DNA from: a virus | DNA: 31,490 nucleotides | IMG/VR virus record: IMGVR_UViG_3300046733_000738 | Span: 1 to 31,490 of that record | Reading direction: 5' to 3' (one strand) | Shown here: one piece after another, positions 4,427-20,034 of the stretch | How the letters are laid out: each line of letters starts with the position of its first letter | Numbering within the stretch: the stretch's first letter is position 1 | Made by a program: the position numbers and the translations under genes | The notes under the pieces: generated by a model | The model's database searches: none | Told to the model about the DNA's origin: nothing | The model's input: only the letters and a program-made list of their open reading frames with translations

Positions 4427-4649
4427 AGAACTTATAAAAGTAGCAGAAGAAGAAATTATTGTTGATGGCGGCGAAGATGAGCTTGCTGCTGATAGATTAA
4501 AGAATGCGGCTGCTACAAAAAAACTTGCAATATTCGATGCATTTGAAATATTAAATAGAATAGATGCTGAGAAAGCAATGCTTGAAAACAAACCTATTAA
4601 AAAAGAAGAAAAATCATTTGGTGGGTTTGCAGAAAAAAGATCTAAGTAA
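4371..4649 (+). CDS. Small helical protein; candidate small terminase subunit
   Basis: The product has 92 residues, almost entirely helical by composition (KAVEELIKVAEEEI, DELAADRLKNAAATKKLAIF, FEILNRIDAEKAMLE), with a basic C-terminus (GGFAEKRSK). It lies immediately before the large terminase and overlaps it by one base (TAATG), the usual place for the small terminase subunit that recognises phage DNA. No helix-turn-helix is clear, so the assignment rests on position, size and helical nature. The first 56 bases also code for the end of the upstream gene in another frame; a later start would remove a well-formed N-terminus. Confidence 0.45.
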   Translation: MTSKEQKNRIIQSGYKAVEELIKVAEEEIIVDGGEDELAADRLKNAAATKKLAIFDAFEILNRIDAEKAMLENKPIKKEEKSFGGFAEKRSK

Positions 4650-6856
4650 TGTACGAACAAAAGCTTTTAAAAATAGTTCAACCTATTAAATTAACCACAA
4701 TAGATAGACTTAATAGAAGTAAATCTTGGAAGTATGGTTATGATAAAGAGCATGATGTTGTTGTTATAAGTAAAACTGGTAAGATTGGTGAAATATATGA
4801 ATTACAAAATTTAAAAATAGCATTACCAAAAGCTAACGATGTTCAGAATACTAATAACAAATGGGAACCAATCGAATATCCTAAAGAATTAAAAAGTATT
4901 AAAACTATTTTTGATTGGGAAAAATACTCTGAAGAATTTAAAAACAAATGGTATGCATATATTGATAAAGAATTTACCAGACGCGAAAAAGGATATTGGT
5001 TCAATAACAAGGATATACCTACTTATGTTACTGGTTCTCACTATATGTACTTGCAGTGGACCAAGATTGATGTTGGGAAGCCAGACTTCAGAGAGGCTAA
5101 TAGATTGTTCTTCATTTTTTGGGAGGCATGCAAAGCGGACAAACGTTGTTACGGAATGTGCTATCTTAAAAACCGTAGATCCGGATTTAGTTTCATGTCT
5201 TCAAGTGAAACCGTCAATCAGGCTACAATTACTTCAGACTCACGCTTCGGGATATTGTCCAAATCTGGATCTGATGCTAAAAAGATGTTTACCGATAAAG
5301 TCGTACCGATATCGCTCAATTTACCGTTCTTCTTTAAACCAATACAAGACGGAATGGATAGGCCGAAATCGGAGCTCGCGTACAGAGTCCCAGCGTCCAA
5401 GCTTACCAAGAAATCCATCACCTCAACCAGTGAAGAAAAAATACTCGAAGGACTTGATACGACAATAGACTGGAAAAATACTGGAGACAACAGTTACGAT
5501 GGTGAAAAGCTTAGGTTATTAGTGCATGATGAATCTGGTAAATGGGAAAAACCAGATAACATATTAAATAACTGGAGAGTAACGAAAACAACATTAAGAT
5601 TAGGTAGCAGAATCATAGGTAAATGTATGATGGGTTCTACCTCAAATGCTTTAGATAAAGGCGGCGAAAATTTTAAAAAATTATATAAAGCATCAGATGT
5701 CACAAAAAGAAATCGCAATGGCCAGACTAGCTCGGGATTATATAGTTTGTTCATACCTATGGAATGGAACTACGAAGGATACATTGATTCTTTTGGATAC
5801 CCTGTATTCGATACACCAGCAGAACCCGTCATTGGAAATGATAAAGAGTATATTGATATTGGAGTAATTGAGTTTTGGGAAAATGAAGCGGATGGTTTAA
5901 AAAATGATAAAAACGGTTTAAACGAATTCTATAGACAGTTTCCTAGAACTGAAGAACATGCCTTTAGAGATGAAAGTAAAAACAGTATATTTAATTTAAC
6001 AAAGATATACGAGCAGATAGATTACAATGATGGTACTTTAGCAACTGGTGCTGTGGTTAAAGGTAACTTCCAATGGGAAAATGGAATCAAAGATACTAAA
6101 GTAATATTCTATCCTAGCAAAGAAGGTAGATTTAATATTTCTTGGGTACCTAGTTTAAATTTACAAAACCGTGTAATAATAAAGAATGGAGCTAAACATC
6201 CAGGTAATGAACACGTAGGAGCTTTTGGTTGTGACTCATATGATATATCAGGTACAACAGATGGTAATGGTTCTAAAGGTGCTTTGCACGGACTTACTAA
6301 ATTTAGTATGGAAAATGCACCACCTAATACATTTTTTTTAGAATATATAGCTAGACCGCAAACGGCTGAAATATTTTTTGAAGATGTGCTTATGTCTTTA
6401 GTATTTTATGGAATGCCTTTACTTGCGGAAAACAATAAACCAAGACTATTATATTATTTAAAAAGAAGAGGTTACAGAGGTTACTCAATGAATAGACCGG
6501 ATAAGTTAATGAATAAATTATCTGTAACTGAAAAAGAAATTGGTGGTATGCCTAACTCGTCAGAGGATATAAAACAAGTTCATGCTGCTGCAATTGAAAC
6601 ATACATAGAAAGTTATGTAGGTTTACAGGAAAATGGTGATTATGGAAATATATATTTTAATGACACCTTAAACGATTGGTCAAAATTTAATATTAATAAT
6701 AGAACGAAGTTTGATGCTTCGATTAGTTCAGGACTAGCTATTATAGCTTGTAATAAACATTCATACCAACCTAAAATAAATACTACAAAAAAAGTATTGG
6801 ATTTTGGTTTTAAAAAATACAATAACCAGGGTAATACTTCAAAAATAATAAAATAA
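4649..6856 (+). CDS. terL: Terminase large subunit (DNA-packaging ATPase/nuclease)
   Basis: The product has 735 residues. The ATPase half has a variant Walker A, LKNRRSGFS (residues 173-181, with Arg-Arg in place of the classic lysine loop, as in many phage terminases). Walker B is RLLVHDE (D294, E295), and a coupling motif MMGSTSN follows with S330 and T331. The nuclease half begins near residue 525 with FGCDSYD (D529 as the likely first metal ligand). It cuts concatemeric DNA and pumps it through the portal encoded directly downstream (stop and start adjoin). About 430 bp around the Walker A region have clearly higher GC and C-ending codons compared with the rest of the gene (see the separate entry). 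The family call is confident. Confidence 0.9.
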   Translation: MYEQKLLKIVQPIKLTTIDRLNRSKSWKYGYDKEHDVVVISKTGKIGEIYELQNLKIALPKANDVQNTNNKWEPIEYPKELKSIKTIFDWEKYSEEFKNKWYAYIDKEFTRREKGYWFNNKDIPTYVTGSHYMYLQWTKIDVGKPDFREANRLFFIFWEACKADKRCYGMCYLKNRRSGFSFMSSSETVNQATITSDSRFGILSKSGSDAKKMFTDKVVPISLNLPFFFKPIQDGMDRPKSELAYRVPASKLTKKSITSTSEEKILEGLDTTIDWKNTGDNSYDGEKLRLLVHDESGKWEKPDNILNNWRVTKTTLRLGSRIIGKCMMGSTSNALDKGGENFKKLYKASDVTKRNRNGQTSSGLYSLFIPMEWNYEGYIDSFGYPVFDTPAEPVIGNDKEYIDIGVIEFWENEADGLKNDKNGLNEFYRQFPRTEEHAFRDESKNSIFNLTKIYEQIDYNDGTLATGAVVKGNFQWENGIKDTKVIFYPSKEGRFNISWVPSLNLQNRVIIKNGAKHPGNEHVGAFGCDSYDISGTTDGNGSKGALHGLTKFSMENAPPNTFFLEYIARPQTAEIFFEDVLMSLVFYGMPLLAENNKPRLLYYLKRRGYRGYSMNRPDKLMNKLSVTEKEIGGMPNSSEDIKQVHAAAIETYIESYVGLQENGDYGNIYFNDTLNDWSKFNINNRTKFDASISSGLAIIACNKHSYQPKINTTKKVLDFGFKKYNNQGNTSKIIK
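5041..5475. other. Higher-GC patch inside the terminase gene
   Basis: By counting each 60-base row, 5041-5460 contains about 178 G+C of 420 (42%), with 32 of 60 at 5341-5400. Rows on either side (4801-4860, 5521-5640) are about 23-33%. Codons switch to TTC, TCC, ATC, GTC and CCG here and back again at about 5475. The reading frame is intact and protein motifs are continuous. The patch covers Walker A up to just before Walker B. Confidence 0.75.
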
Positions 6857-9274
6857 ATGTTACAAACTCAAACAAAAGGTATATTTCCGAGCCAAGCGGT
6901 TTCAGATGGTGAGAAAAGAAGTGCAGCTTATGGTTTAGAAATAGCTAGGGCAATTGAAAGCGAATGGTTTAAAAGAGACGCAGGTACTATGCGTTATTTT
7001 GCAAGTCGCGATAATTTTCATAGATTAAGATTGTATGCTAGAGGTGAGCAATCTATTCAAAAATATAAAGATGAATTATCTATTAATGGTGATTTGTCTT
7101 ATTTAAATTTAGACTGGAAGCCTGTACCTATTATACCTAAGTTTGTAGACATTGTAGTAAATGGTATGGCTGATAGATCATACGATATTAAAGCTTATTC
7201 ACAAGATAGTGCATCTATAAAGAAAAGAAGTGAGTATGTAGAGTCTATGCTTAGAGATATGCAGACTAGAGAAATATCTGATCAAATACAAGCTCAACTA
7301 GGTATAGACGTTTATGAAAACGATAAGGAAAAACTTCCTGAAACAGAAGAAGAGCTAGAATTACACATGCAGCTTGAATACAAGCAGTCTGTTGAAGTAG
7401 CGGAAGAAGAAGCTATAAATAATGTTTTTGATCATAATAAATTTGATCTTTTAAAAAGAAGATTAAATTACGATGCAGTAACTATTGGGATGTCGGCATG
7501 TAAAAATAGCTTTAACACTGCTGATGGAATTAAAATAGATTATGTAGATCCTGCTGATTTAGTTTATTCTTATACTGAATCACCTTATTTTGATGATATA
7601 TATTATGTAGGTGAAGTTAGAAGAGTTTCTTTTGTTGAATTGAAAAAACAATATCCTGAGTTAACGGATGAAGATTTAAAAGAGATAGAAGATAAAGGAA
7701 GTAATGTTATGTTGTATAACAGATCTCACAACGCTCAAGATTCTTCAGATAATTCTTATGTTTATGTTTTATACTTTGAATATAAAACTTTTAACAATCA
7801 AGTATATAAAATAAAGGATACAGCTTCTGGCGCTAGTAAGGCGATTAAAAAAGATGATAGCTTTGATCCTCCAAAAGATAATAAAGCTAGGTTTAAAAAA
7901 GTATCTCGTTCTGTAGAGGTTATATATGAAGGAGCTAAAATTATAGGTCACAACAAAACATTGAAATGGCAGCTTGCTGAAAATATGACTAGACCTAAAA
8001 CTGATACTACAAAAGCTCACTTTAGTTATAATATCGTTGCACCTAGAATTTATAAAGGTAATATAGAATCTTTAGTTGGCCGTATGACTACGTTCGCTGA
8101 TATGATTCAATTAACTCATTTGAAGTTACAACAAGTATTATCAAGAATGGTACCAGACGGTGTATTCTTAGATGCAGATGGTATTGCTGAAATAGATTTA
8201 GGTAATGGAACTAATTATAATCCACAGGAAGCACTTAATATGTATTTCCAAACTGGATCTGTTATTGGTAGATCAATGACACAAGATGGTGACTTTAACA
8301 ACGGTAGAGTACCTATACAAGAATTACAAACTTCTGGAGCTAATGCAAAAATAGCTAGTTTAATTAATTCTTATAATTACTATTTACAAATGATCCGTGA
8401 TGTAACCGGATTAAATGAAGCACGTGATGGTAGCACACCAGATAAGAATGCTTTAGTAGGTTTACAAAAATTAGCTGCTGCGAATTCAAATACAGCAACA
8501 AGACATATATTACAAGCTGGATTGTATTTAACTTTAAAAACAGCTGAAGCGGTTGCGCTTAGAGTTTCCGATGTTCTAGAATATTCTAACACTAGAAATA
8601 ACTTTATACAAAGCATTGGAAAATATAATGTTGGTGTTTTAGATGATTTAAAAGAATTGCATTTGCATGACTTTGGTATATTCTTAGATTTAGCACCTGA
8701 TGAAGAAGAAAAACAATTGCTAGAAAATAATATTCAAGTAGCATTATCAAGAGAACAAATATTCTTAGAAGATGCTATTGATATTAGAAATATTAAAAAC
8801 TTAAAACTAGCAAATGAATTATTAAAGCTTAGAAGAAAAAAGAAAGCTGCACAAGACAGACAAATGCAAACAGAAAACATATCATTGCAATCTGAATCTA
8901 ATGCAAGAGCTGCACAAGCTGCTGCTCAAGCAGATGTCCAAAAAGAACAAGCTATATCTCAATCTAAAATACAAATCAAAAGTGCAGAGCACGAACTTGA
9001 AATACAAAAATTACAACAAGAAGTTCTAGCTAAAAAAGAGCTTATGACATATGAGTTTGAGCTTAATAAGCAGCTTAAAGAACTAGATTTACAAGTGATT
9101 AACAATAAAGAAGAATATAAGGAAGATAGAAAAGATAAAAGAACTAAAATTCAAGCATCTCAACAATCTGAATTAATTGATCAAAGAAAAAATAATACCC
9201 CACCTAAAGACTTTGAATCATCTGGCTTTGATACATTAGGTGGATTTGGTCTAGAGCAATTTGAGCCTAGATAG
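6857..9274 (+). CDS. Portal protein
   Basis: The product has 805 residues and follows terL directly, in the canonical portal position. Features include an N-terminal region with FHRLRLYARGEQS and NLDWKPVPIIPKFVDIVVN (about residues 55-105), a central region with VDPADLVYSYTESPYFDD, and a helical stem area (DMIQLTHLKLQQVLSRM) followed by RDVTGLNEARDGSTPD. The pattern strongly recalls portals of crAss-like and related marine podoviruses. From about residue 655 to 765 there is a long Gln/Lys/Ala-rich helix, likely coiled-coil, which could form an extended barrel inside the head as in P22-type portals. The end is Gly/Phe-rich. The ring would dock the terminase and later the neck proteins. The fold family is inferred from sequence pattern and position. 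Confidence 0.87.
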   Translation: MLQTQTKGIFPSQAVSDGEKRSAAYGLEIARAIESEWFKRDAGTMRYFASRDNFHRLRLYARGEQSIQKYKDELSINGDLSYLNLDWKPVPIIPKFVDIVVNGMADRSYDIKAYSQDSASIKKRSEYVESMLRDMQTREISDQIQAQLGIDVYENDKEKLPETEEELELHMQLEYKQSVEVAEEEAINNVFDHNKFDLLKRRLNYDAVTIGMSACKNSFNTADGIKIDYVDPADLVYSYTESPYFDDIYYVGEVRRVSFVELKKQYPELTDEDLKEIEDKGSNVMLYNRSHNAQDSSDNSYVYVLYFEYKTFNNQVYKIKDTASGASKAIKKDDSFDPPKDNKARFKKVSRSVEVIYEGAKIIGHNKTLKWQLAENMTRPKTDTTKAHFSYNIVAPRIYKGNIESLVGRMTTFADMIQLTHLKLQQVLSRMVPDGVFLDADGIAEIDLGNGTNYNPQEALNMYFQTGSVIGRSMTQDGDFNNGRVPIQELQTSGANAKIASLINSYNYYLQMIRDVTGLNEARDGSTPDKNALVGLQKLAAANSNTATRHILQAGLYLTLKTAEAVALRVSDVLEYSNTRNNFIQSIGKYNVGVLDDLKELHLHDFGIFLDLAPDEEEKQLLENNIQVALSREQIFLEDAIDIRNIKNLKLANELLKLRRKKKAAQDRQMQTENISLQSESNARAAQAAAQADVQKEQAISQSKIQIKSAEHELEIQKLQQEVLAKKELMTYEFELNKQLKELDLQVINNKEEYKEDRKDKRTKIQASQQSELIDQRKNNTPPKDFESSGFDTLGGFGLEQFEPR

Positions 9275-9306: not shown

Positions 9307-10515
9307 ATGGAAGACTACAAAGTTAATTTAGTCGAAGACGAGAACCCTAGTGCTGCAGAAAAAGAAGAAACAGTATTAGAAAACGCAGGAGTTGATACAA
9401 AATCAGAAAATACAACTTATAAAGTTGATTTATCTAAACCACCTAAAACAGAAGAAAAAGATGCCGTTCAAGAGCAAAGCACAGATGAGGTTCCTGTTCG
9501 CGACGAATCCGAAGCTAGCGAAAAAGTGGAAGAGGAAGTACGGAGTACCGAAGAACCTACCCAACAAGAAGAAGAATCAGTCTTAGAGTTAATAGAAGAC
9601 GATCCTGTAGAAGAAAAAGAAAACGAAGAGCCTGTTGCTGAAGTAAAAGAAGAAGTGCAGGTTGAAGAAACTAAAGAAAATAATATTGAGCTACCTGAAA
9701 ATATACAGAAGGTAGTTGAGTTTATGGAAGAAACTGGCGGTAGTTTAGAAGATTACGTTAGGTTGAATGCTGATTATTCAAATGTAGACGAAAATACATT
9801 GTTGAAAGAGTACTATAAACAAACAAAATCTCATTTAGATAATGATGAGGTTAATTTTTTAATTGAAGATAATTTTTCTTTTGATGAAGAAGTTGATGAT
9901 GACAGAGAAATCAGAAGAAAAAAATTAGCTTATAAAGAAGAGATTGTAAAAGCTAAGAGCTTTCTTGAAGGTTTAAAAGGCAAATATTACGAAGAAGTCA
10001 AGTTGAGTTCTAAGTTAGCCCCAGAACAAAAAGAAGCAATTGAATTTTACAACGCTTATAAAGAAGAGCAGTCTAAACTAACTGCTCAGCAACAAACACA
10101 AGCAAATAATTTTACTGAAAAAACTAATTCTTTTTTTAGCGATGAATTCAAAGGTTTTGATTTTAAAGTTGGAAATAACAAGTATAGGTTTAAAGTAAAT
10201 GATGTGAACCAAGTAAAAGAATCCCAGAGCGACATTGCTAGTTTCTTAGGTAGTTACCTAGATGACAAAGGCATGCTTACAGATCCTTCTACTTATCACA
10301 AAGCTTTATTTGCTGCTAAAAATTCTGACAAAATTGCTAATCACTTTTATGAGCAAGGTAAAGCAGATGCTATTAAGCAATTAGAAATGGAATCTAAGAA
10401 TATTAATATGGATCCAAGAAAAAATGCAAGTGGCTATGTTGATGCCGGAGGATTAAAAGTAAGAGCAATTAGTGGAAATGATAGTTCAAAATTAAGAGTA
10501 AAAATAAAAAGATAA
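9307..10515 (+). CDS. Head scaffolding protein
   Basis: The product has 402 residues and lies between portal and major capsid genes, the classic place for the scaffold. The first ~140 residues are extremely acidic and low-complexity (runs of Glu with Pro, Val and Thr), the middle is helical (RRKKLAYKEEIVKAKSFLEG, LAPEQKEAIEFYNAYKEEQS), and the last 20 are basic (KVRAISGNDSSKLRVKIKR), a common capsid-binding end. It would guide procapsid assembly and then leave or be degraded. No protease motif is visible here. Bases 9461-9586 also encode, in the +1 frame, a separate small basic protein described in its own entry. The start at 9307 follows an A/T-rich leader. Confidence 0.8.
   Translation: MEDYKVNLVEDENPSAAEKEETVLENAGVDTKSENTTYKVDLSKPPKTEEKDAVQEQSTDEVPVRDESEASEKVEEEVRSTEEPTQQEEESVLELIEDDPVEEKENEEPVAEVKEEVQVEETKENNIELPENIQKVVEFMEETGGSLEDYVRLNADYSNVDENTLLKEYYKQTKSHLDNDEVNFLIEDNFSFDEEVDDDREIRRKKLAYKEEIVKAKSFLEGLKGKYYEEVKLSSKLAPEQKEAIEFYNAYKEEQSKLTAQQQTQANNFTEKTNSFFSDEFKGFDFKVGNNKYRFKVNDVNQVKESQSDIASFLGSYLDDKGMLTDPSTYHKALFAAKNSDKIANHFYEQGKADAIKQLEMESKNINMDPRKNASGYVDAGGLKVRAISGNDSSKLRVKIKR
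9461..9586 (+). CDS. Embedded small basic protein of the MPFKSKAQ type
   Basis: A 41-codon ORF with its own ATG lies wholly inside the scaffold gene, in the +1 frame. It starts MPFKSKAQMRFLFATNPK, continues KKWKRKYGVPKNLP and ends KKKNQS. I recognise the start as matching a family of short phage proteins beginning MPFKSKAQ-x-R-(F/Y) that usually have their own gene; their role is unknown to me. The product has 13 Lys/Arg and no Asp or Glu. G or C is present at about 31 of 41 third positions in this frame, against about 14 of 41 in the scaffold frame over the same bases. The frame remains open upstream to an ATG at 9392, but the family start favours 9461. Expression is not shown by sequence. 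Confidence 0.6.
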   Translation: MPFKSKAQMRFLFATNPKLAKKWKRKYGVPKNLPNKKKNQS

Positions 10516-10533: not shown

Positions 10534-11922
10534 ATGGCTATTACTTTAGGGGGCGGAACTACAACTCCAGCTCCAGTAAAACAAACTTTGTCAACTAACT
10601 ACGTTGACTTTACCGCTGCAGGAACTGCAGGATGGGCACAACAATATCTACCAGATCTATATGAAGCTGAAGTTGAAAAATTTGGTGACAGAACAGTTGG
10701 TGGATTTCTAAAAATGGTAGGCGCTGAAATGCCTATGAGTTCAGATCAAGTTATTTGGTCAGAGCAAGGAAGACTACACCTTTCTTACACAGGTACTTTA
10801 GGTACTGATACTAACAAAACAAATGAAATAACAGGTCTTACAGGTCACGCAATCCGCGTTGGTCAAACAGTTGTTATTTCTGACGGTGCAGGACCAGCTG
10901 TTAAAGCTTATGTTTCTGCAATTGCTGCTGCAGCTATTACTGTTAACTGTTATACAAGTGATACTGGTTGTGTTGCTGCTGGTGTAACTGCAGGTGCTGT
11001 TTCTTTATTTGTATACGGTTCTGAATTTGCAAAAGGTACTGATACAATGAGTGAATCAGTAACTCCTAGCTTCCAGTCTTATACTAACAATCCTATTATC
11101 TTAAAAGATAAGTATGAAATCTCTGGATCTGATGCTTCTCAAATTGGATGGGTTGAAGTAACTGGTGAGTCTGGTGAGTCTGGATACTTATGGTATATCA
11201 AAGCTGAAGGAGAAACTCGTTCACGTTTTGAAGACTATACTGAAATGGCTTTAGTTGAAGCAGAAAAGAATATTAATACTTCTACTTCTACAATTGCTGG
11301 TTCTGAAGGGCTTTTTGCTGCGATTACTGATAGAGGACACATCCATGAAGATGGTATTAATGGTTCTTCTGCTGCAGATGATTTAGCTGATTTTGATAAC
11401 ATGCTTAAGAAACTTGATAAGCAAGGTGCTATTGAAGAAAACGTACTTTTCTTAAATCGTGATCTTTCTTTGAACATTGATGACATGCTAGCTGCTCAGA
11501 ATTCTTACGGTGCTGGAGGTACTTCTTACGGAGTATTTAACAACAGTGAGGATATGGCGCTTAATTTAGGATTTAGCGGTTTCCGTAGAGGTTCTTATGA
11601 TTTCTACAAAACTGACTGGAAATACTTAAATGATGCTGCTACTCGTGGAGCAATCGCTGGAGATGTTACAGGTGTATTAGTACCTGCAGGAACTTCTACT
11701 GTTTATGACCAAATTCTTGGTAAAAACCTTAAAAGACCATTCCTACACGTACGTTACCGTGCTTCTGAAGCTGATGATAGAAAAATGAAATCTTGGATCA
11801 CTGGATCTGTTGGAGGAGCTTCAACTTCTGGTTTTGATAAGATGGAAGTACACTATCTATCTGAAAGATGTTTAGTAACTCAAGCTGCGAATAACTTCGT
11901 ATTGTTTGGTGACTTTGCATAA
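10534..11922 (+). CDS. Major capsid protein
   Basis: The product has 462 residues. N-terminal MAITLGGGTTTPAPVKQTLS is followed by DLYEAEVEKFGDRTVGGFL, a middle rich in Ala, Thr and Gly (about residues 80-170, perhaps a surface-exposed insertion), an EISGSDASQIGWVEV segment, and a C-terminal block with RPFLHVRYRASEADDRKMK and YLSERCLVTQAANNFVLFGD. The last block is strongly reminiscent of crAss-like and marine Bacteroidetes phage capsid proteins (HK97 fold). It follows the scaffold gene. Codons are biased to GCT, ACT, TCT, GGT and AAC, as expected for a very highly expressed gene. A strong hairpin terminator follows immediately. I see no N-terminal delta domain or processing site. Confidence 0.9.
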   Translation: MAITLGGGTTTPAPVKQTLSTNYVDFTAAGTAGWAQQYLPDLYEAEVEKFGDRTVGGFLKMVGAEMPMSSDQVIWSEQGRLHLSYTGTLGTDTNKTNEITGLTGHAIRVGQTVVISDGAGPAVKAYVSAIAAAAITVNCYTSDTGCVAAGVTAGAVSLFVYGSEFAKGTDTMSESVTPSFQSYTNNPIILKDKYEISGSDASQIGWVEVTGESGESGYLWYIKAEGETRSRFEDYTEMALVEAEKNINTSTSTIAGSEGLFAAITDRGHIHEDGINGSSAADDLADFDNMLKKLDKQGAIEENVLFLNRDLSLNIDDMLAAQNSYGAGGTSYGVFNNSEDMALNLGFSGFRRGSYDFYKTDWKYLNDAATRGAIAGDVTGVLVPAGTSTVYDQILGKNLKRPFLHVRYRASEADDRKMKSWITGSVGGASTSGFDKMEVHYLSERCLVTQAANNFVLFGDFA

Positions 11923-18882: not shown

Positions 18883-20034
18883 ATGAAGGAAGTTAAAAAT
18901 TTTCTTACAGAAAATGAATGTAATTATATTATAGATTTAATTAATAATAACAACTTTAAATCACAAGTAATTGGAGCAGAAGGCAAGTCTATTTACGAAA
19001 ACAGTAGAACATCCTCCACATCTAATTTATCAATAGCAGATAAAGTTATTATTAGTATACATAAAAAAATATCAAATTATTTAAATATACCTATAGAGAA
19101 CGGAGAATCTTTACAAGGTCAAATGTATGAACCTGGTGAATATTTTAAACCACATCAAGATGCTTTTTCTGGTAATTCTTATGAAGCTCATGCGGGAACC
19201 GCAGGAAACCGCACGCATACATTAATGATTTATTTAAATGATAATTTTGAAGGTGGTGAAACAAGATTTACAAACATTAATACATCTGTAGTTCCTGAAA
19301 TAGGCAAAGCTGTATTTTGGAAAAATATAGACGAGAATAAAAATATAATACCAGAATCAATGCACGAAGGTTGTGAGGTAACCTCAGGTAAAAAGTATAT
19401 AATAACGTCCTGGTGGAGAGAAAATTCTTGGTCTACAAATAACACTAAACTTAATAATTTTGTTAATTCTGGGCCACCTAAACTTACAGAAAAAGGTTTT
19501 AAAGTAATTCCGTTGCCTAAAAATGAATGGAGTATAATACAAGACACTTATGAATTAATTAAAAACAAAAATGTAGAAGAAATTTTTGATAATAAAAAAG
19601 ATTTTATTAAAAATGGAAACACTGAATTATTAAGTTTTGATCATGCTCCTAATATTAAAAATTTTATTCATAATCAGTTGTTAAAAATTCACGAAGAATT
19701 TGCTGGTAAAAAACTTATACCGTCTTTTATATATGGAATTAGATCTTACCAAAACGGAGCAACATTAGTTCCTCACGTAGATCGCATTGAAACTCATCAC
19801 ATATCCTCTATAATAATTATAGATAAAGATTTAGATGGAGAAAATGATTGGCCTTTAGATATTAAAGACCATAATGGCGAATGGCATAAAGTTTATGCAA
19901 AACCAGGGGATATGATACTTTACGAAGGGGCGGTGTGCAAGCATGGACGTAAAGAAAATTTTAAAGGTAATTATTTTAGAAATTTATTTGTTCATTATAA
20001 GCTTCATGACTTTTTAACAAATAATGTTTTATAG
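18883..20034 (+). CDS. Tandem 2-oxoglutarate/Fe(II) dioxygenase, prolyl-hydroxylase-like
   Basis: The product has 383 residues with two dioxygenase domains. Domain 1 (about 1-182) resembles prolyl 4-hydroxylase: PHQDAF gives H91-x-D93, then RTHTLMIYLND and FEGGETRF, the distal H161 in MHEG, and K170/K171 for 2-oxoglutarate in GKKYIITSWW. Domain 2 (about 205-375) has PHVDR with H298-x-D300, distal H354 in CKHGR and R366 in YFRNLFVHY. All iron and cosubstrate residues are thus present in both. The enzyme would hydroxylate a substrate using O2 and 2-oxoglutarate. It lies between two BACON-like virion genes, one with long Pro/Thr linkers, which are plausible substrates; that link is inference. 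Phage 2OG oxygenases can have other substrates. Confidence 0.82.
   Translation: MKEVKNFLTENECNYIIDLINNNNFKSQVIGAEGKSIYENSRTSSTSNLSIADKVIISIHKKISNYLNIPIENGESLQGQMYEPGEYFKPHQDAFSGNSYEAHAGTAGNRTHTLMIYLNDNFEGGETRFTNINTSVVPEIGKAVFWKNIDENKNIIPESMHEGCEVTSGKKYIITSWWRENSWSTNNTKLNNFVNSGPPKLTEKGFKVIPLPKNEWSIIQDTYELIKNKNVEEIFDNKKDFIKNGNTELLSFDHAPNIKNFIHNQLLKIHEEFAGKKLIPSFIYGIRSYQNGATLVPHVDRIETHHISSIIIIDKDLDGENDWPLDIKDHNGEWHKVYAKPGDMILYEGAVCKHGRKENFKGNYFRNLFVHYKLHDFLTNNVL

Follow-up and report, generated by a model that had tools for sequence, protein, structure and literature searches.

A probable exchangeable small phage gene nested in the +1 frame of a putative scaffold gene

The classical nested out-of-frame genes of phages are phiX174 E, within D, and lambda Rz1, within Rz. 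Both are lysis genes, and each is fixed in one host gene. The locus described here resembles them in that a larger gene contains, in another frame, all or nearly all of the coding sequence for a small protein. Unlike them, the gene described here, a member of what we call the MPFKSKAQ family, can be found in host genes of two classes, passes between near-identical phages and has relatives that stand alone as genes. Another described system is ShiLan, in which an out-of-frame HNH homing endonuclease lies in a 202-aa insert of phage methylase genes (PMC11855218). The likeness to ShiLan consists of an alternate-frame gene in a segment where the host frame stays open, and of a patchy distribution; the difference is that the product here has 41 aa and no nuclease motif, and that its hosts are structural genes. 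Nested out-of-frame phage genes, and an out-of-frame gene in an open insert, are thus already known. In tailed phages they are usually single curiosities, whereas here many phages carry members of one family, unnoticed by annotation and invariably in +1, in structural genes of two unrelated kinds. The literature searched, in which subscription journals were thinly covered, contained neither the term "MPFKSKAQ" nor any account of a family with stand-alone members that is repeatedly nested out of frame in structural genes of two kinds. An earlier, sequence-only reading of this DNA had suggested that overprinting of a conserved small gene inside a scaffold gene would be new.

The window, meaning the whole stretch of 31,490 nt that was analyzed, has the gene order terminase, portal, putative scaffold, capsid-type structural protein, based on PHROG matches (Table 1). 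The host gene of the small ORF itself had no match in domain-family and PHROG searches, and it is called a scaffold because of its place in this order and its acidic N terminus. The small ORF overlaps scaffold codons 52–93. It is very probably a real protein gene, contained entirely within the scaffold gene in +1, initiated internally and carried as an exchangeable cassette.

Table 1. Features of the window around the nested gene, and offsets of a possible further hidden family in related loci
Feature	Position	Strand	Basis
Terminase large subunit	4649..6856	+	PHROG 6681, E=4.8e-163
Portal protein	6857..9274	+	PHROG 6547, E=2.6e-150
Putative scaffold gene, 402 aa	9307..10515	+	ORF, place directly before capsid gene, acidic N terminus
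A-rich leader (agaagaaaaag) of small gene, candidate initiation region without Shine-Dalgarno	9446..9460	+	Sequence; determinants per PMC6847099
MPFKSKAQ-family gene, 41 aa, entirely within scaffold gene in +1	9461..9586	+	Translation, family match, conservation
Capsid-type virion structural protein	10534..11922	+	PHROG 13704, E=4.5e-102
Possible third +1 family, offset after scaffold ATG	L003 +277, L009 +280, L102 +286, L004 +292, L042 +298		

What distinguishes the small ORF from an accidental one? Translation and frame confirm the 41-codon +1 ORF noticed in the sequence-only reading, with the product MPFKSKAQMRFLFATNPKLAKKWKRKYGVPKNLPNKKKNQS*. That reading also correctly counted 13 K/R and no D/E in the product, set against a strongly acidic overlapping scaffold peptide (16 D/E, 3 K/R). 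Its GC figures hold as numbers (29/60 at 9481–9540; third-position GC over the overlap of 76% in the small frame and 34% in the scaffold frame), but the third-position contrast, offered as a sign of dual coding, is largely mechanical because position 3 of the small frame is position 1 of the scaffold frame, which has 50% GC gene-wide. Open length and the basic/acidic contrast likewise come for free, since GAA/GAG-rich sequence read in +1 becomes AAG/AGG-rich, and hence Lys-rich and stop-poor. Indeed, when codons of these Glu-rich scaffolds were resampled and the protein sequence left unchanged, 33% of the shuffled versions had an ATG-initiated +1 ORF of 38 codons or more, and a meaningless ORF of this kind is seen in Maribacter phage Panino. 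Given the shuffles, open length and charge contrast were dropped as proof of a gene. An ORF that arose in this way, with an accidental family resemblance, is nonetheless refuted, and its probability is close to nil. The family motif arises in 0.65% of shuffles per gene but is present in 53/81 real loci; a profile made from stand-alone genes only (16 genes from other phage contigs and MAGs) singles out this ORF among 715 six-frame window ORFs at E=1.7e-20; and the conserved family match recurs in a second class of host, the giant genes described below. The family likeness was therefore rightly judged improbable by chance.

The similarity extends past the residues by which the family was recognized. 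The first eight residues had served to fetch loci and were removed for a second score; residues 9 onwards alone still give E=2.4e-14 with the stand-alone-only profile. PHROG 1375 matches the small product at E=2.9e-4 over residues 3–26, whereas Pfam and NCBIfam gave no useful match and no Pfam domain. On sequence similarity, the ORF is assigned to a widespread, uncharacterized, PHROG 1375-like phage family, as the sequence-only reading had proposed. Streptomyces phage FlowerPower gp48, Mycobacterium phage Papyrus gp8 and A0A6J5KN67, like the product here, have the common N-terminal motif, a two-helix core and similar size, with one copy per record searched. PHROG 1375 members are separate genes, in contrast to the small gene here, which is nested wholly inside another gene. 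An AlphaFold2 model of the product predicts two helices, at residues 6–15 and 17–27, with a mean pLDDT of 87. The nearest BFVD models are uncharacterized, stand-alone phage proteins of 43–44 aa, with TM-scores up to 0.83; Streptomyces phage Fabian and Mycobacterium phage Barnyard also contribute relatives to the close predicted structures. The best Foldseek E is only 1.3e-3, as might be expected of a chain this short. A fold search of the PDB returned nothing below E=5, and PDB sequence matches (Cake designs and similar) were rejected as an artifact of weak repeats summed.

Overprinting of the family on scaffold genes is not confined to the window. Relatives were fetched by capsid protein rather than by the small gene, giving 80 viral contigs, or 81 scaffolds with the window; most of these loci are metagenomic fragments. 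A family member lies in 53 of the 81 scaffold genes, in +1 in every case and never in +2, with its start 61–199 nt downstream of the scaffold ATG, and each of the 31 carrier records searched whole has exactly one copy. The synonymous-site comparison proposed in the sequence-only reading gave depressed variation: with one set of locus pairs used for both regions, scaffold synonymous-site mismatch is 0.15 over small-gene codons 2–8 and 0.523 in the control, the scaffold downstream of the overlap, although carriers were recognized partly by codons 4–8, so that the figure for codons 2–8 is partly ascertainment. Variability within the overlap runs in the reverse order, third positions of the small frame being the most variable. 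Their mismatch over codons 2–8 is 0.29–0.41 in overprinted copies and 0.58 in stand-alone genes; the greater freedom of the stand-alone genes implies that both frames constrain the overlap, and constraint at the protein level is thus seen on both frames in diverged relatives. Beyond codon 8, there is no conservation across subfamilies among the carriers. Strong base conservation within codons 2–8 might also be expected if the conserved entity were an RNA or DNA element rather than a protein, but variation is concentrated at small-frame third positions, the site has no Rfam match, and the window mRNA at the small-gene start is less structured than 197/200 shuffles (z=+1.98). A structured RNA was rejected on this last result, and a nucleic-acid element of any kind is exceedingly improbable. 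One scaffold with a hidden gene, in L173 (PBPJ01000056), resembles those of Bacteroidetes phages (L169, L146) in a record titled Candidatus Woesearchaeota archaeon; it is probably a misbinned phage contig.

Host genes of a second class also contain the small gene. Searching for the family pattern gave ~95 further loci, and every same-strand overprinted copy among them is in +1. Sixteen of these copies lie within giant ORFs of ~1000–3200 aa, one of which has an LPD38 polyvalent-protein domain. For an unbiased sample, relatives were fetched by the giant-gene sequence downstream of the site; the small gene is in +1 in 16/16 loci so obtained (~11 of them new), in some of which the host protein is only 25–45% identical. 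Elemo and MW202828 keep the order portal, scaffold, capsid with a scaffold that lacks the small gene, and have their single copy in the giant gene. Hence, the small gene can occupy another position and still keep its sequence and its frame relative to the host. The proposal that a conserved MPFKSKAQ-type gene overprints the scaffold is thus borne out and extends to giant genes. Elemo phage MT497075 (L002:3186) also has, ~400 nt upstream of its full copy and in frame with it, a short ORF, MPFKSKKLMK, possibly a decayed duplicate.

How would the small frame be translated? Translation of the small protein would begin internally, at its own ATG within the mRNA that it shares with the host gene, through an A-rich, unstructured leader in Bacteroidetes phages like the window and through a Shine-Dalgarno sequence in other hosts. 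In giant genes, 64% of the small-gene ATGs (14 distinct leaders) follow a Shine-Dalgarno core, compared with 11% of 1031 other out-of-frame ATGs in the same genes. Scaffold copies have no Shine-Dalgarno core, and neither do the scaffold and capsid starts themselves; the leaders of these copies are A-rich at −12, −13 and −3. In Flavobacterium, ribosome profiling places −12, −13 and −3 among the positions that favor initiation (PMC6847099). Alternatively, the small frame could be the C-terminal end of a scaffold protein made by programmed frameshifting, as would be compatible with the window itself, where 27 open codons of the small frame precede the ATG. Most copies, in contrast, have a small-frame stop 0–9 codons upstream of the ATG, so that a frameshift could hardly serve as a general mechanism, and an upstream open overlap long enough for a shift site is not found in all copies. 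The Met is invariant in alignments, stand-alone homologs start at the same Met, and the Shine-Dalgarno cores before giant-gene ATGs also argue against frameshifting, which is very improbable. Internal initiation is the best reading, and it is from these sequence features that we infer translation of the small frame.

The distribution of the small gene is patchy: on the capsid tree, its presence and absence require at least 17–20 changes. L010 and L011 have nearly identical capsid proteins but different small-gene subfamilies, as do L037 and L048, and L055 lacks the small gene that L067, with a capsid 97% identical, carries. DNA identity falls from mostly 75–100% in the flanks to 34–56% over the small gene or just past its start, and carriers are ~12 residues longer before the scaffold anchor motif in 9/10 matched pairs. 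These patterns are those of a cassette being replaced, not of a gene born de novo. The sequence-only reading held that it would be refuted if homologs were missing outside this locus, or if related phages had stops in the small frame while conserving the scaffold. Homologs do exist elsewhere, as stand-alone genes and in giant genes, but the second expectation holds in part: 28/81 related scaffolds lack the small ORF although the scaffold is conserved, and no copy was found elsewhere in those 28 records, most of which are fragments. This absence, together with cassette exchange between near-identical phages, indicates a dispensable accessory gene and not an artifact. Could the cassette spread by itself, as a selfish homing insertion like ShiLan? 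The patchy distribution, the sharp local replacement of DNA and the extra N-terminal residues of carriers would all be compatible with this. Against it, the inner frame encodes no endonuclease (41 residues forming two short helices, with no nuclease motif, Pfam domain or PDB fold match), there is one copy per record, and the added length is usually smaller than the cassette, so that replacement by homologous recombination explains the spread. Homing is accordingly quite unlikely. The small gene did not arise anew here but belongs to a family with stand-alone phage genes among its members. As an exchangeable cassette, it sits in a probably disordered segment of the scaffold or, in other phages, of the giant gene, and the host frame of the cassette (DAVQEQS...) reads as a linker, acidic in the scaffold.

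Why is the frame always +1? Phase permissiveness was considered and rejected as the cause for the window subfamily. When the window's small protein is given random synonymous coding, the host frame is open with P=0.03 in the +1-type phase and P=0.43 in the +2-type phase; +1 is thus the harder phase, and ease does not explain its universality. In the subfamilies of L010 and L011, the +2 phase is never open. The likely reasons are that the double-coding cassette descends from a common ancestor, or that an acidic linker is selected over a basic one.

There are two main candidates for the function of the small protein. First, and ranked highest, though tentatively, the product may be a basic two-helix protein that binds nucleic acid or the scaffold in head assembly or DNA packaging. 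Some stand-alone members lie beside portal or connector genes (L168, L177, Papyrus) and some beside terminase genes (L163, L148, L087), while others adjoin replication genes (L101, L166) or lysis genes (FlowerPower); the copies in replication or lysis regions weaken a packaging role. Second, the gene may encode an anti-defense or superinfection-exclusion factor hidden in a late gene for compactness, a possibility ranked second and only slightly lower. Presence, absence and subfamily switches among phages with near-identical capsids are as expected of arms-race genes, and overlapping genes with exclusion activity are described for Pseudomonas phage Fc02 (PMC9936078); on the other hand, the small gene sits in late structural genes, and many stand-alone copies adjoin portal or terminase genes. 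Assembly or packaging remains the reading we place first. More broadly, and speculatively, structural genes may hold docking sites, disordered and in the same phase, for exchangeable out-of-frame small genes: the MPFKSKAQ family would move between two unrelated hosts, a Cys-rich family would share the scaffold site, and the products would be head-associated DNA- or scaffold-binding factors synthesized with their partner.

This locus matters for several reasons. First, the cassette exchanges between near-identical phages are natural experiments on the co-evolution of two frames. Second, cultured carriers are available, as elemo phages on Flavobacterium sp. BAL314, which makes expression and function directly testable. 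Third, in all 68 elemo-type Flavobacterium phage records the small gene overlaps one whose only annotation is "structural protein", and it is thus stored under another gene's name. The implication is that a class of phage proteins stays hidden where gene callers forbid nested genes on the same strand.

Other small ORFs are hidden in the scaffold gene. A second, unrelated, Cys-rich family with SPxK or SPxKM repeats lies in +1 at the site used by the MPFKSKAQ family (L056, offset +103; L197–L210). It is in +1 in 14/14 loci, with host synonymous sites depressed (0.114 vs 0.365). Tails of the [ST]PxK type occur at 12.6%, compared with 6.5% by shuffling, and as a common DNA-binding module they are suggestive only. 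A possible third +1 family of 25–28 aa (MAYKCKSKGK..., MPRSCKSKSKK...) coexists with the MPFKSKAQ gene in L004, L009, L042 and L102. Elsewhere, a Rhodobacteraceae MAG (L175:4001–5641, NZVE01000002) encodes a long protein with an MPFKSK start, Cys-rich modules and repeated AESFGAE linkers that resemble protease cleavage sites. In the window, an ORF of the virion-gene region at 18883–20034 resembles, by eye, tandem 2-oxoglutarate/iron oxygenase domains.
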